Source of the DNA: a bacterium BMS3Abin06
GTDB lineage: Bacteria; Nitrospirota; Thermodesulfovibrionia; UBA6902
Assembly (NCBI GenBank): GCA_002897895.1
Contig: BDSY01000091.1
Location: forward strand, 1-64,000
DNA: 64,000 nucleotides
Reading direction: 5' to 3'
In this document: piece by piece, positions 4,267-43,360 of the stretch
Layout of the letters: each line of letters opens with the position of its first letter
Position numbering within the stretch: the first letter of the stretch is position 1
Notes under the pieces: generated by a model
Told to the model about the DNA's origin: nothing
Database searches by the model: none
What the model saw: only the letters and a program-made list of their open reading frames with translations
Translations under genes and position numbers: made by a program

Positions 4267-6195
4267 CTATCCATCCTCCCATTTCAATCTGTCGCTGAAC
4301 CGCCAGCCTGTAAAGGTTGCCGCAGAGGTATAGATCAGGCTGTTGATCACAATGTTTAAATAGATATACCAGTCTGCAAAATAGAGCCTGAAGAGGACCA
4401 TATGCAGGTAGAGCCCTGTCAGTGTTATAAAGGCATCCGCAAGGGAGAGGCATGCTGCGAGACAGAAGACAGACCTCCTGCTCCAGCTAAACCCCTCCCC
4501 CTTACGCGTGAGCCCCGACACATAAAAGGCTGACTCCTTTGCAACAATGCCCGTGCCTGTAAAGAGTATATCCGCCAACTGGAACCCGCCGAACATGATG
4601 CCGTTCAGCATGTAACGGACAAGTGTTGCAAATGTCACTGTGCCCGGTCTGGGAAGCAGCCTCACAAGGGAGACCAGAAGGGTCCAGTAAAGCAGCGCAG
4701 AGAAAAAACCTGTAAAAAAGACGCTGAACGGTCCGGTCACTGCCGAGACAAATGCCCCGAATATACGGACAGGGACATTTGAGACCACAAAGGTCATTGC
4801 CCCGTAGAGGGAGATAATCACCAGCCACCTGACCTTCATGCCCGCCACTATTTTTTTAAACCTGAGGACAAAGACCAGTGTGGCGGTCAGACTCAGAAAT
4901 ACTGCAATAAGGGTAAATGTCCATGCCGTCAGGTTCATGGATCTGACATGGAGCGGGAACTCATATTCCGCAACAGGAGAGACCGTCCCCATCATGATAA
5001 GCTTTACCACCCTGCGGTACTCTCCTGGCAGGGGATCGGAGGTTACATAAACAGGCAGCACTACCCGTGTCTTTTCTCCGGGCAGGAGCGTGGCTGTAAC
5101 AGTGACTGCCGTGTCCTTTGTTCCGCCTGTCATTGAGTCGGGCGGTCTGAATGATTCAGGCATGATGTCACGGTCTTTATAATAGATACCGGAGCTGACG
5201 AGCAGTGCAATGCTGCCGGTCCCGGCATTCTCCAGGACAAGGCCCTGGTATGTAAAGGGATGATAGTAGTCAATATACTTTGGCTCAACTCCGAAGAAAC
5301 GACCGAGTTTTTTGAATACACCGGGCTGGATGTAGAGTGTATCTGCTGCATACTGCCGGAGGGCTATGCCCTGAATACCGACAGGCATTGATGCCTTGAC
5401 AAGCCTTATTGTATCTCCCAGTGATTCCTGTTTAACGACTTTAACCGTTACAGCCCTGCTGAAGAAAGACTCCTTACCGCCTGCTCCTTTCAGGGTGACC
5501 CGGGCATGTAAGCGATACTCCCCTTGACGCGGCATACGTATACGGAATGGCAAATAAAATCTCTCGTAAGCAACGGAAAGAGTTGTCCTGAAGTGTATGA
5601 CGGTCTCTTGTTCCCCGTAAACTATTTTTGTGTCCCGGTTTTGCGGAAAGGCCGTGACCTTTATCCCGGCGGGGATGGTGATCCTGCCTGTAATGAGGCT
5701 CTTACCCTGTTGATATGCAGTGATAATGAAGGCCGACGTCAGCTCGTTATTCTCAATCGCCGCGCTTGAGCCCCCGGTTTCCTTCTCAAATATCATGGGG
5801 GACGTCAACCCGGCCATTGAGGTGAACGGGACTGAAAACTGGATCCCGGCAGTGTAGTCATTATCCGGGGAGCTTTTTTCAATCACCATGCTTCCCTCAT
5901 CAGTGGAGACCGTAAAGGTATAATCCCTCCGGCCCTTCCACTCAAACACAAGCCATAGTTTTTCCTTTTTTATGCCGCCGGTCTGACGGGAGACAATCAG
6001 ACCCTCTCTCCCCTCTACCTTCACATGCCTGATCCTTACAGGTGAGGGGAAGGTCAGCCATACGCCGTCAGGAACAAATTCCACATCTGCGTCCCGCACG
6101 GCTCCAGGTGATGCAAGAAAGTACCATACGGTGACGCCGGTACCTGTAAGTAATATAAGAATGCTCAACATGAAAAATTTCTTGCCCTTTCTCAT
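4267..6195 (-). CDS. Membrane protein: extracytoplasmic beta domains plus ECF S-component-like C-terminus
   Basis: A 642-residue protein. It has one membrane anchor near residues 8-28, a long extracytoplasmic part (about 30-425), and a C-terminal membrane block of about six helices (about 430-635). The extracytoplasmic part looks all-beta; its last portion resembles NEW3/CARDB-type sandwich domains (LLPGEKTRVVLPVYVTSD, then LPGEYRRVVKLIM). The C-terminal block lies directly before ecfT and has the length and helix count of an ECF S component, the subunit that binds the small molecule. I infer that role from context; no S-family signature is certain. Its start overlaps the preceding stop as TGATG. 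A substrate-binding membrane domain fused to a large outer domain would be unusual for ECF systems. Confidence 0.6.
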   Translation of the reverse strand: MRKGKKFFMLSILILLTGTGVTVWYFLASPGAVRDADVEFVPDGVWLTFPSPVRIRHVKVEGREGLIVSRQTGGIKKEKLWLVFEWKGRRDYTFTVSTDEGSMVIEKSSPDNDYTAGIQFSVPFTSMAGLTSPMIFEKETGGSSAAIENNELTSAFIITAYQQGKSLITGRITIPAGIKVTAFPQNRDTKIVYGEQETVIHFRTTLSVAYERFYLPFRIRMPRQGEYRLHARVTLKGAGGKESFFSRAVTVKVVKQESLGDTIRLVKASMPVGIQGIALRQYAADTLYIQPGVFKKLGRFFGVEPKYIDYYHPFTYQGLVLENAGTGSIALLVSSGIYYKDRDIMPESFRPPDSMTGGTKDTAVTVTATLLPGEKTRVVLPVYVTSDPLPGEYRRVVKLIMMGTVSPVAEYEFPLHVRSMNLTAWTFTLIAVFLSLTATLVFVLRFKKIVAGMKVRWLVIISLYGAMTFVVSNVPVRIFGAFVSAVTGPFSVFFTGFFSALLYWTLLVSLVRLLPRPGTVTFATLVRYMLNGIMFGGFQLADILFTGTGIVAKESAFYVSGLTRKGEGFSWSRRSVFCLAACLSLADAFITLTGLYLHMVLFRLYFADWYIYLNIVINSLIYTSAATFTGWRFSDRLKWEDG

Positions 6196-39650: not shown

Positions 39651-39832
39651 TTAATCTGCAAAACAACAGGCGGCTTCCTTTATTGGTTGTATTTGTGAAT
39701 GTGTTGCCCAAAAGTACCATTTCTTTAAGCTTCTCTCAAATTCTTCTTTCTCGCTTTCTTTGTATATCTCCTGAAAGTTCTCTCTTATCTGCATTGCCCT
39801 TACTGTCTTTAAATTCATCCGTGGCATTTTTC
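39651..39832 (-). pseudogene. C-terminal fragment of an ISL3-family transposase
   Basis: In the frame ending at the TAA at 39653-39651 the sequence reads MPRMNLKTVRAMQIRENFQEIY, continuing to LKKWYFWATHSQIQPIKEAA. NLKTVRAxxIRExFQxIY and KKWYFWATHSxxxPIKEAA are characteristic of the ISL3 (IS204/IS1001/IS1165) transposase C-terminal region. Everything before and the last segment after are missing. It abuts and slightly overlaps the helicase 3' end, so insertion and decay of this element probably replaced the helicase's original C-terminus. Confidence 0.7.
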
Positions 39833-42800
39833 AGCCATTTTGTCGGTCGTAGCGATAATAAAAGCTTCCTTGTTACTGTCCAAAAGGTCATACATCTCGC
39901 CTGGGAGCTTTCTCTTTTTTTCATCCGGCCCGCTTTCAAGCAGACCTGCCGCTGATATAAAATCAAGTTCTTCGGCTGCTCGCTTTACCTGCGCCATAAA
40001 AAACTTTTGCAGTCTCCCACGGCGAAAATAGGTGATAAGCGCTCCGGCAGAAGTATCACAGGCATCCTGCCTGAGCCTGTGCATAGGGCTATTCAGGCTG
40101 GAAGCCTGAGCTGCAATGTATTGCCTTATTCTTTCTAACTGTTCAGTGCTTCGAATTATATGATCAAAAGATTCGGGCATCCACACAGGTCCTCTTTGAC
40201 CTGTTAGCTTGTTCAACTCATTGGCTGTATAGGATTTCCAGGAATGGGTAATCTTTGATAAAGTCCATTCACCTCTCGGAATTACAATAACATGGACATG
40301 ATTGGGCATGACAGCAAATTTATCCAAATAGTATCGTTCACCATCGAAATAGTTTAATGTTTTCTCAACAATTTGTTTACACTCTTTGTTGTCTAATATG
40401 CATGAGCCATGACCATTGTTCAATAAATCATCATATCGTTTGGAAAAAAGGCGAAAGTATTCAATCTTTTTATGTTGTTTCAGTTTTTTTACTTCAGAAG
40501 GGTTGGAGATTTTGTTGGCTTCCAGCCACTGTTCTCTCTGCCTTTTTATGTTTTCAGAAACTTCTTGCGGAATTGAATCATATAACCTGAAGGTAACAAA
40601 ATAAGAGGTTCCTTTCTGCTGCCAATGAGGCAAATTTCTCTGTTTTGTTTCGACTGATTTATACGGATCAAAATACATTATTATATCAGACATATCCTGG
40701 CCGGAATGATTGAAGCACAGGCTGGAAGCCTGAGTAACTTTTGCTGTGCGGGCTTTTTTGGGCAGGTGTTTTATTTTTTCAAAAAGGTCGGAATCCTTTT
40801 CGCGGATATCCCGGATAACCTGCAAGTATTTCAGTTCGCTCTCCTCCGCTTCATCATCGCCTTCCAGCGTTTTCTTTGAAATCAACCGGTCGAACAGCTC
40901 ATGGGAGCCGATAGGTTCGCCTTCGGTTAAAAGCTCCGCATCGCCGCCAAGCAGGGTTAAAAAGGCATTGATTTTCGCTTCTGCCGCTTCTTTCAGCTTA
41001 ATCTGGTCATTGGATTGTTTCGTAGGGAAAAAATTGAATGTATGGATAACATCAAAGGGTGTATCAACCCGGTTAATACGGCCCACTCTCTGCATCATTC
41101 GGGCCGGGTTCCAGGGGATGTCGTAATTGATCACCACATTGGCGCGGTGCAGGTTCACCCCTTCCGACAGGACTTCAGTAGCAATTAATATACGGTAATC
41201 TTCTTTTGGCCGGCGGGCCCGGGCATCAAAGTTTTCAAGCACTTTGTCACGGATAGATTCACCCGAATCGCCGGTAAACAAAAGAACCTTGCCGGGATAA
41301 TCTTCATCAATATTTTTAAATAAATAATTGGCAGTTTCCTTTGATTCCGTGAAAATAATAATATGATTCTTTTTCAGGACATTATTGTTTGACAGTTCAT
41401 TTTTAAATTTCAGAAGTTTCGGATCACGTTTAACGTTCTGCCAAAGTTTTTTGACTTCCGTCAGGATGGCATGGTCATGCTCTAAATCTTTTTTGAGTTC
41501 TTCTCTGAAATTTTTGCTGTCATATTTCTCCGCTTTACCTTCATCTATCAATCGCTGGACCGCCTCATCATCGTCGTTTTCTATAAATTCAAATATCTTG
41601 TTGGTGTGCTTCTTACTGACATACACATAGCCATTGTCCAGCTCTTTTATGAACATTTCGTAGGAACGCAGGAATCTGTCAACGGAATTTCTAAATGCAA
41701 AGAAACTGCTTTCCAGTCGTTTGACAAGCAGTATTTTCATAAACCGGCCCATGTTCCTCTGGGATTGCTCTTCAAGCTGATCAATCTTTCCCGCATAATA
41801 AAGCATGGGCATATAGCGAGCATATCTGAATTGATTTGCTATAAGGTCGATTGTTTTATTGAAGATATCGTCCTCATCATCATTGAGTTCGTAGAATAGC
41901 GGCTCAGGTTTTTTGACATCCGGAAATTCAAGCCCCTGTTCTTTTATGTCTTTGATGAAATATTTTTCAATTTCTGTTCGGGTGCAGCGTACCATTAAAT
42001 ATTTCAGGACCTTATCGCGAATTTCCCGTGCATTTGCTCTTACAGTATCTATGTATTTGGTATGGTCTTTCTGCCTGTCCAGTTTTTTAAGTTTTCTGTC
42101 CAGGCCATTAAAGAATGCCTCCAGGTCAGGCAGATTGGGAATGGTACTTTTTTTGGCTTTCTGAAACAGTTTAAGCAGGCTTAGAATATCTTTGGGAGCA
42201 TTGTTATAAGGCGTTGCAGTTACCAGGACAACTCTTTTCCCGCGGCATACTTCCGCCAGTTGCTCATAGGATATTGTAGTTTCGGTTCTGAAACGGTGCG
42301 CTTCATCGATGATAATATTGGTGTATTTGTCTAATCCCCTGTCCGGCAATTTATCTAATTTGCCGAGTGATTCAAAATCAGCCGGAACCCGGAAGTCCGA
42401 AAACACATTGGGCCAGGAACCGGGATTTGATTTTTCCAAAAGTACCGGCGGGGCGATAATAAGCGTTCTGCCGTCTAATTGACCTGCCAGCATAGCTGAA
42501 ATGTAGGTTTTCCCTAACCCCACGACATCGGAGATAAAAACACCGCCATATTCCAGAAGTATTTTTTTGGCGTTTAAGACAGCCTGCTCCTGATATTCGA
42601 GTTTTTTAAACTCCTGGGGCAGATATTTAATGAATACCTCATCTGTCCGGCTGAGCTCATCTTTGAAATATTCGTAGAGAAACTTCAGGTATAGCTGATA
42701 AGGAGTGATATTTTGAGTCAACCAGGTCTTGTCCTGAATGGTCTGAACATATTTTTCGCTGACATCTACTGCGTTACACCACAATTCCTCAAATTTGTTT

Positions 42801-43360
42801 TTTGCAAAATCATAGTCGCTTCTGTTTTTAAGTTCCACGTTGAATTCAAGATTGTCGACCAGCCCGGCTTGTGTGAAATTGCTGGAACCTGTGATAACGC
42901 GGCCGGTATCTCTGTCGCCCTCCTTAAATGTCATAATATAGAGTTTGGCGTGGATATTCTGTGACGGATAAGCCCTGATTTCCAGCTTGCTGTTTCTGAT
43001 CCATGCTATGAATTTATGTACGCCTTGTTCAACGTTTCTATTGTCTTCGGAAACCTCCATTTCATTCTGAACAAGATTTTCAACTTCCTGCTTTGCTTCC
43101 GCATGAGAGAAATCAAATGTTTGTCGGGTTGGTTTATTCGCCTTTCCCATCATTTCGAAAGTTTGTCTGCTTGTGCTGATACCAATCAGGATTCTGATTT
43201 TTTCCGTGCTTTCCAGTGATGGGTAGATGGCGTGAAACCAGCTTGAGTAGAAATATCCTGCGAGACAATCAAAAAATGACGTATCTTTAATAAGGACTTC
43301 AAATCTTTCTTTAAGACTTTGATTTTCTTCGTTTGTAATAAATGACAGATCGGTGTTCAT
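39815..43360 (-). CDS. PLD-domain DEAH helicase carrying an in-frame transposase insertion
   Basis: 1181 codons. Residues 1-250 hold a phospholipase-D-like domain (NIHAKLYIMTFKEGD with His137, ITGSSNFTQAGLVDN). Residues 250-560 hold a helicase motor (SDVVGLGKTYISAML, IIIDEAHRFR, LVTATPYNNAP). Residues 630-780 hold the second motor half ending MQRVGRINRVDTPF. From about residue 877 to 1101 the frame is occupied by a REP-associated tyrosine transposase; the helicase tail (ALITYFRRGRLQKFFMAQ onward) then resumes in the same frame. The end, KMAEKCHG, abuts an ISL3 fragment and may be truncated. PLD-helicases of this type are common in defence or restriction islands; activity of this copy is doubtful. 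No methylase or partner gene is next to it. Confidence 0.75.
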   Translation of the reverse strand: MNTDLSFITNEENQSLKERFEVLIKDTSFFDCLAGYFYSSWFHAIYPSLESTEKIRILIGISTSRQTFEMMGKANKPTRQTFDFSHAEAKQEVENLVQNEMEVSEDNRNVEQGVHKFIAWIRNSKLEIRAYPSQNIHAKLYIMTFKEGDRDTGRVITGSSNFTQAGLVDNLEFNVELKNRSDYDFAKNKFEELWCNAVDVSEKYVQTIQDKTWLTQNITPYQLYLKFLYEYFKDELSRTDEVFIKYLPQEFKKLEYQEQAVLNAKKILLEYGGVFISDVVGLGKTYISAMLAGQLDGRTLIIAPPVLLEKSNPGSWPNVFSDFRVPADFESLGKLDKLPDRGLDKYTNIIIDEAHRFRTETTISYEQLAEVCRGKRVVLVTATPYNNAPKDILSLLKLFQKAKKSTIPNLPDLEAFFNGLDRKLKKLDRQKDHTKYIDTVRANAREIRDKVLKYLMVRCTRTEIEKYFIKDIKEQGLEFPDVKKPEPLFYELNDDEDDIFNKTIDLIANQFRYARYMPMLYYAGKIDQLEEQSQRNMGRFMKILLVKRLESSFFAFRNSVDRFLRSYEMFIKELDNGYVYVSKKHTNKIFEFIENDDDEAVQRLIDEGKAEKYDSKNFREELKKDLEHDHAILTEVKKLWQNVKRDPKLLKFKNELSNNNVLKKNHIIIFTESKETANYLFKNIDEDYPGKVLLFTGDSGESIRDKVLENFDARARRPKEDYRILIATEVLSEGVNLHRANVVINYDIPWNPARMMQRVGRINRVDTPFDVIHTFNFFPTKQSNDQIKLKEAAEAKINAFLTLLGGDAELLTEGEPIGSHELFDRLISKKTLEGDDEAEESELKYLQVIRDIREKDSDLFEKIKHLPKKARTAKVTQASSLCFNHSGQDMSDIIMYFDPYKSVETKQRNLPHWQQKGTSYFVTFRLYDSIPQEVSENIKRQREQWLEANKISNPSEVKKLKQHKKIEYFRLFSKRYDDLLNNGHGSCILDNKECKQIVEKTLNYFDGERYYLDKFAVMPNHVHVIVIPRGEWTLSKITHSWKSYTANELNKLTGQRGPVWMPESFDHIIRSTEQLERIRQYIAAQASSLNSPMHRLRQDACDTSAGALITYFRRGRLQKFFMAQVKRAAEELDFISAAGLLESGPDEKKRKLPGEMYDLLDSNKEAFIIATTDKMAEKCHG
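40059..40732 (-). mobile_element. REP-associated tyrosine (Y1/RAYT) transposase insert with REP hairpins
   Basis: The encoded segment, starting near MSDIIMYFDPYKSVETKQRNLPHW, has the Y1 transposase pattern: GTSYFVTFRLYDSIP, the HUH motif in FAVMPNHVHVIVIP, GPVWMPESFDHIIRSTEQLERIRQYI with the catalytic Tyr region. Hairpins CAGGCTGGAAGCCTG lie at 40718-40732 and again at 40094-40108, with a variant CAGGCATCCTGCCTG at 40059-40073. Such REP hairpins are the cognate substrates of RAYT enzymes. The whole insert keeps the host frame open on both sides (about 675 bp, a multiple of three). Confidence 0.85.

Follow-up and report, generated by a model that had tools for sequence, protein, structure and literature searches.

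A REP-associated transposase read in frame within a PLD-SNF2 helicase gene, and related transposases nested in restriction-modification genes

We show that a gene of the bacterium BMS3Abin06 (Nitrospirota; GCA_002897895.1, contig BDSY01000091.1, positions 1 to 64,000, the whole 64,000-nucleotide stretch being called the window here) carries a complete REP-associated tyrosine transposase (RAYT), bounded by its repetitive extragenic palindromic (REP) hairpins, as an internal domain of a helicase. The gene, 39815-43360 on the minus strand, is a single uninterrupted frame of 1181 amino acids, with its ATG at 43360 and its stop at 39815, and it encodes in order a PLD nuclease, an SNF2/DEAH helicase, a REP, the full RAYT, two further REPs, and the C-terminal part of the helicase. 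The same insertion occurs in four relatives of this helicase, and the RAYTs closest to the nested one lie mostly within restriction-modification (R-M) and other defence genes. We consider it likely that the REP-RAYT cassette is a passenger of R-M genes that move horizontally: it would sit in their permissive linkers, be translated without disturbing the frame, and keep its nuclease. Because the same nesting recurs across phyla and the closest relatives are mostly nested in restriction or anti-phage genes, nesting seems to be the way in which a single transposase lineage lives, rather than an accident.

A transposase inside an open helicase frame

The features of the gene, all on the minus strand of the window, are as follows.

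39815-43360, minus: fused open frame, PLD-SNF2/DEAH helicase with nested RAYT, 1181 aa (Pfam; PADLOC C3a139 'HKD+Snf2')
42779-43075, minus: PLD-like nuclease domain, residues 96-194, HKD motif HAKLY (Pfam PLDc_2, E 1.1e-9)
41948-42325, minus: SNF2/DEAH helicase domain 1, residues 346-471, motif DEAH at 352-355 (Pfam SNF2-rel_dom, 2.6e-8)
41066-41395, minus: helicase C-terminal RecA domain, residues 656-765 (Pfam Helicase_C, 2.3e-21)
40679-40738, minus: 5' REP block of 60 nt, translated VTQASSL..., core CAGGCTTCCAGCCTG at 40718-40732, immediately 3' of the conserved KKARTAK
40115-40678, minus: RAYT (TnpAREP) core, residues 895-1082, starting at its own former ATG (MYFDP) (Y1_Tnp 3.1e-7; NF047646 7.7e-14; 4ER8)
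40292-40300, minus: HUH motif codons H1021-V-H1023, conserved in 19/19 relatives
40118-40120, minus: catalytic tyrosine codon Y1081, conserved in 18/19 relatives
40034-40114, minus: 3' REP block of 81 nt, translated AAQASSLNSPMHRLRQDACDTSAGALI, cores at 40094-40108 and 40059-40073, the final ~18 nt being host linker
39830-40033, minus: remaining helicase C-terminal part (TYFRRGRLQKFF...EMYDLLDSNKEAFIIATTDKMAE), shorter than in homologues
39654-39830, minus: ISL3-type transposase remnant that truncates the helicase gene and is joined to its end (Pfam DDE_Tnp_ISL3, 1.2e-7)

The original prediction placed a REP-bounded RAYT with an HUH motif at about residues 877-1101 of a PLD-DEAH helicase, read through without a stop on either side. 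This observation holds, the arrangement being both real and conserved; the RAYT core is tighter (895-1082), the wider range having taken in the REPs. Pfam places PLDc_2 at 96-194, SNF2/ResIII at 342-471, Helicase_C at 656-765, and Y1_Tnp at 993-1085 of the 1181-residue protein, and the best defence-family match is PADLOC C3a139 'HKD+Snf2' (8.9e-44, residues 37-1012). The nested RAYT has kept its own ATG and lost its own stop codon.

The assignment of the insert to the RAYTs is supported at several levels. The HUH motif corresponds to H1021/H1023 and the single catalytic tyrosine to Y1081; among clade relatives, the former is intact in all 19 and the latter in 18, one protein (L195) having a histidine instead. 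The NF047646 model matches with an E-value of 7.7e-14 and 51.8 bits, which is under the 80-bit cut-off of that model, and the TnpAREP structure 4ER8 is matched by profile at 2.1e-8, while a single-sequence search of the PDB gave chance matches only. In a structure model of the full-length protein, the host part was fine and the RAYT part had low confidence because too few sequences were available; the RAYT was therefore modelled on its own, with a pLDDT of 92.5. Foldseek ranked 4ER8 first for this model (probability 1.00, TM-score only 0.45-0.51), followed by IS200/IS605 transposases. The hairpins read CAGGC-TTCCA-GCCTG on both sides of the RAYT and CAGGC-AGGAT-GCCTG downstream; the window element and another nested one (L201) have the same loops, TTCCA and AGGAT, on different stems, and most copies have GTAAC/GTTAC, not GTAG, before or after the hairpins.

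With described RAYTs (PMC2817692, PMC6006769), the element shares the HUH motif with one tyrosine, the 4ER8 fold, the inverted flanking REP hairpins, and a single copy per genome. Known RAYTs, however, are standalone genes, whereas the window element has no stop of its own, lies in an open frame of 1185 codons, and forms an internal part of a host enzyme; it is thus a RAYT domain and not a standalone RAYT gene. The IS200/IS605 elements belong to the same HUH Y1 transposase superfamily and have the same fold; they differ from the window element, which has no TnpB seen adjoining it, no multicopy insertion pattern, and a REP pair in place of subterminal insertion sequence ends. No second copy of the window RAYT was found in its own genome, in contrast to the several copies per genome typical of IS200/IS605.

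The same insertion in five genomes

Homologues were sought across 84,980 species genomes, and also within the window's own family and phylum. Around 50 close helicases are without a RAYT, and four beyond the window have one: L038/L009 (Nitrospirota HyVt-268, of the same genus), L039 (Bacteroidales), L040 (Bacteroidota), and L041 (Caldithrix). These four are 80-93% identical to the window protein, and in each of them the same linker holds the RAYT in an open frame. Both the host gene and the partner in its operon fall among the systems that pair a PLD-SNF2 helicase with a type IIG methylase (PADLOC C3a139 'HKD+Snf2', REase_MTase_IIG); members of C3a139 usually have a linker of about eight residues at the position where the window member has a RAYT.

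Alignment with uninterrupted homologues, which had been proposed as a check, located the junctions. In unbroken genes, the linker of ~8 residues joins the conserved KKARTAK to (ALI)TYFRRGKLQKFF, and the insert lies at this position. Four of the five fused genes have an identically placed left junction, AAA|GTAACT (with variants GTTACT and GTAGCT), L038 being without those six bases. The right junction is common to L038, L039, and L041, in which the same linker codons, about nine, have been lost and replaced by the element; the window gene and L040 retain GGAGC(G/A)CTTATC of the unbroken linker. The junction alignment revealed no target duplication.

All fused copies come from metagenome-assembled genomes (MAGs), which could point to an assembly or binning chimera. 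We regard a chimera as extremely improbable, since five separate assemblies from different projects have the same arrangement with normal divergence, and other nested cases described below lie on contigs of 2.2-2.6 Mb (G467:C1, G1009:C5).

It had also been suggested that the frame might be open by chance, the REP hairpins happening to lack stops. The fused genes speak against this: all ten REP blocks in the five genes, from independent assemblies, are multiples of three although their lengths vary (54-93 nt), and none interrupts the host frame; in the other two forward frames, stops occur in all but one instance.

Relatives nested in other restriction and defence genes

A query with the RAYT alone was run against 317 Bacteroidota and 82 Calditrichota genomes, so that the bias of the hosts towards R-M and defence genes was not selected by the query. 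The closest RAYT relatives are mostly nested, in frames of 954-1332 aa (the 468-aa frame in G685 reaches the contig end), and more distant relatives in Bacteroidota and Calditrichota are standalone genes of 214-272 aa. The hosts of the nested RAYTs include a type IIG methylase (L195), two kinds of HsdR (L196-L198, L201), HmaB at two sites (L200 and L203; L199), and the methylase of the window's operon, again at the same site (L202). A further host is a Mod-like gene, so named by sequence reading, that is cut short after the RAYT (L204). In a genome of the window's class (G089), a RAYT with a different REP family lies in frame in a type IIG methylase of the operon's type, after motif I (L126/L127, G089:C61:13507-14028). 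Host domains are present on both sides of the nested RAYTs in the IIG methylase, HsdR, and HmaB genes. Unbroken homologues of ~70% identity (a Tistrella HsdR and a Meiothermus DUF1156 protein) align on either side of the insert; therefore, the RAYTs in HsdR and HmaB are internal additions, and their junctions are fixed.

In a RAYT tree, a branch with 98/98 support separates all 16 nested RAYTs, along with six standalone rows, from 25 RAYTs on the opposite side, every one of which is standalone. Three of those six rows (L147, L150, L151) represent another RAYT type on a long branch and are probably misplaced. The standalone sister RAYTs of the opposite side adjoin ordinary genes. Even a standalone member of the clade (L205) lies in an HsdM-HsdS-RAYT-HsdR operon, its gene names likewise given by sequence reading. 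With a general RAYT model run on 100 Nitrospirota genomes, only the window and G089 elements are nested among the ~158 matches listed. The original interpretation is supported in part: in-frame nesting is confirmed, and it extends further than had been proposed, recurring across phyla and in a RAYT clade found in several restriction and defence genes.

Three other long frames were rejected as nested cases. That in G146 (611 aa) has a RAYT following a truncated Rhs gene, in a terminal and not a nested position, and those in G104 and G094 are standalone RAYTs with a spurious or adjoining frame. We also note that the nested RAYT of L195 (G697:C3) has its HUH motif intact and a histidine in place of the catalytic tyrosine, within a type IIG gene.

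Selection and history

The RAYT part of the fused genes is under purifying selection, neutrality being rejected for every pair (P from 0.004 to 1e-16). Its dN/dS is 0.12-0.14 for L041 against the others (dS ~1.4-1.6) and 0.21-0.36 among the four closer genes, compared with about 0.07-0.11 for the helicase body.

Synonymous divergence is inconsistent from segment to segment along the gene, and L041 is a mosaic. Among the window gene, L039, and L040, the RAYT has a pS of 0.12-0.18, lower than most of the flanks (0.30-0.50), whereas in L041 the synonymous divergence of the RAYT is above that of most of the helicase. Such mismatches would be expected if the cassette had inserted several times independently at this linker, in a site-specific, homing-like manner. 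We find repeated insertion unlikely: the shared junctions and the same lost linker codons in L038, L039, and L041 fit a single event, the helicase alleles are plainly mosaic, which accounts for the mismatch, and the same genomes have no standalone copy of the RAYT. Both the divergence pattern and the shared junctions are explained by a single ancient insertion, after which the flanks recombined with unbroken alleles.

The sequences flanking the window gene and the L038 gene have no similarity beyond the gene itself. Since no such RAYT was found elsewhere in the fused genomes and the REP core hardly occurs outside the gene, the cassette most likely arrived with a horizontally moved helicase. 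Collections of viruses and plasmids contained no close RAYT and no fused helicase; a viral match to the helicase (L058) is unbroken.

Passenger or captured domain

Under the passenger reading, a REP-RAYT cassette that is open in one frame would have inserted into an inter-domain linker of a PLD-SNF2 restriction-type helicase, just before the C-terminal domain, and translation would make it an internal domain of that protein. Since the linker is permissive and the host frame is preserved, the host enzyme would probably stay usable. The cassette would use the promoter and ribosome-binding site of the host gene and be carried from phylum to phylum as the R-M operon moves horizontally. Its HUH/Tyr single-stranded DNA nuclease may be kept active because this activity maintains or moves the cassette and its REPs. 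A more far-reaching version, which we hold only tentatively and judge somewhat less likely to be true than false, is that this RAYT lineage resides in R-M genes as a translationally transparent, frame-preserving linker insertion that is produced within the host enzyme and homes to, or exchanges between, alleles, much like an intein without splicing.

The main rival is domain capture for host use, in which the RAYT would serve R-M and defence enzymes as a working nickase or single-stranded DNA-binding domain, for example against invaders, whose hairpins or single-stranded DNA it would cut. Consistent with capture are the long-lasting purifying selection on an apparently nested RAYT, the HUH motif intact in 19/19 relatives, the fact that all host genes belong to R-M or defence, the loss of the RAYT's own stop codon, and the HmaB pair L203/L200, in which the RAYT is better kept than the host protein (pN 0.26 versus 0.35). 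However, the insertion sites are functionally unrelated (after methylase motif I, at the HsdR nuclease/helicase boundary, between HsdR domains, and near the helicase C-terminus), close homologues manage without a RAYT, and in L195 the tyrosine is lost. Moreover, the RAYT is always flanked by REPs, and the same linkers hold REP-only inserts. We think capture improbable: the varied hosts and positions, the flanking REPs, and the REP-only inserts favor a passenger over an insert that adds a useful HUH nickase to the helicase, as had been suggested.

Several observations weigh against a passenger. The query that revealed the nested clade was itself a nested RAYT, and the genomes searched were a sample made up mostly of MAGs. 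A function for the host would explain the purifying selection on the RAYT just as well. Outside the gene, the fused genomes have almost no REP core: G000 has three copies, two of them in the gene, and G001 only the two in the gene. The dispersal of cognate REPs across the host genome that is usual for RAYTs is thus not seen in G000 and G001, and no ongoing REP spread is visible in the fused genomes. The window copy itself is without the last ~110 residues of the family, its sequence from ~39829 being the ISL3 transposase remnant, and an ortholog of the partner methylase is absent from the window genome, where the best match has 37% identity and lies elsewhere.

The window copy is probably a decaying orphan, and the possibility that the transposase merely sits in a decayed gene, which had been named as grounds for refutation, applies in part to this copy, which has lost its C-terminus and partner, but not to the family. 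The relative in Bacteroidales (L039/L155) is intact: it has a full-length fused helicase of 1294 codons with a complete C-terminus, an AlbA/Schlafen-type gene, and the IIG methylase in unbroken succession (L155). A dead element in a decaying gene, open by chance, would account for the missing C-terminus and methylase of the window copy, and is very unlikely given four full-length fused homologues, one of them within an intact operon, REP lengths that are all multiples of three, a RAYT under selection, and recurrence in other genes; for the family, it is already contradicted. A second PLD-helicase/methylase pair, 34% identical, is present in the same genome (G000:C40:835-3555 and 4840-6045) and is without the window RAYT.

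Relation to known elements

RAYTs are generally regarded as genes that stand alone and may be domesticated. According to one survey, there is no formal evidence that they move autonomously (PMC6006769). Palindromic repeats read in frame are known as intragenic REPs and Rickettsia palindromic elements, often in DNA-processing genes and sometimes at one site in related genes (PMC3733652). These repeats carry no gene, the larger ones encoding 43-82 aa, while the window insert spans ~235 residues and holds a complete transposase. Within the open-access literature searched, with subscription papers outside the search, we found no description of whole RAYTs nested in R-M genes.

Inteins and homing endonucleases are in-frame nuclease passengers that favor DNA-metabolism genes and are tolerated by the host protein. 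Nested RAYTs resemble inteins in all three respects and differ from them in occupying variable linkers rather than conserved active sites and in that the RAYT would stay in the mature protein. A Pfam domain search, splice-junction residues aside, matched no self-splicing (Hint) domain in the window protein.

A RAYT clade that lies in unrelated R-M genes with its own in-frame REPs offers insertion events and empty sites for tests of mobility, and it is a clear case, in bacteria, of transposases that persist as internal domains in enzymes that probably work. Nested RAYTs may also explain odd long 'fusion' proteins dropped by surveys; one RAYT survey took members of unexpected length for fusions or annotation errors and removed them (PMC6006769).

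Other palindromic repeats in the same linkers

In other lineages, the same helicase linker holds other palindromic repeats, always in frame, and at least five unrelated families can be distinguished: ACLPKNQRRQGN (L046), TQAFLPV...TQTRMSVL (L077), PPIPPLVKGGEGGF (L073, L075, L087), VIARSEATKQS (L088, L089), and PSPARGEG (L071). A gene that moves horizontally may pick up repeats from every host on its way. The type IIG methylase of the operon has two such repeat sites, and L039 has REPs of the window family at both.

The genome of Peptococcaceae SCADC1_2_3 (G040) has 51 copies of the window REP core (at most one mismatch) and an unbroken helicase (L042). No relative of the window RAYT was detected in it, nor among 150 genomes of its phylum; this could possibly be a donor-type genome, or one whose draft lacks the RAYT. 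Finally, the HmaB proteins L200 and L203 have more REP-like in-frame inserts at several other linkers (for example, a repeated SGNDAGAPSAS and GTPASRRNAEATGTVAIPAV).

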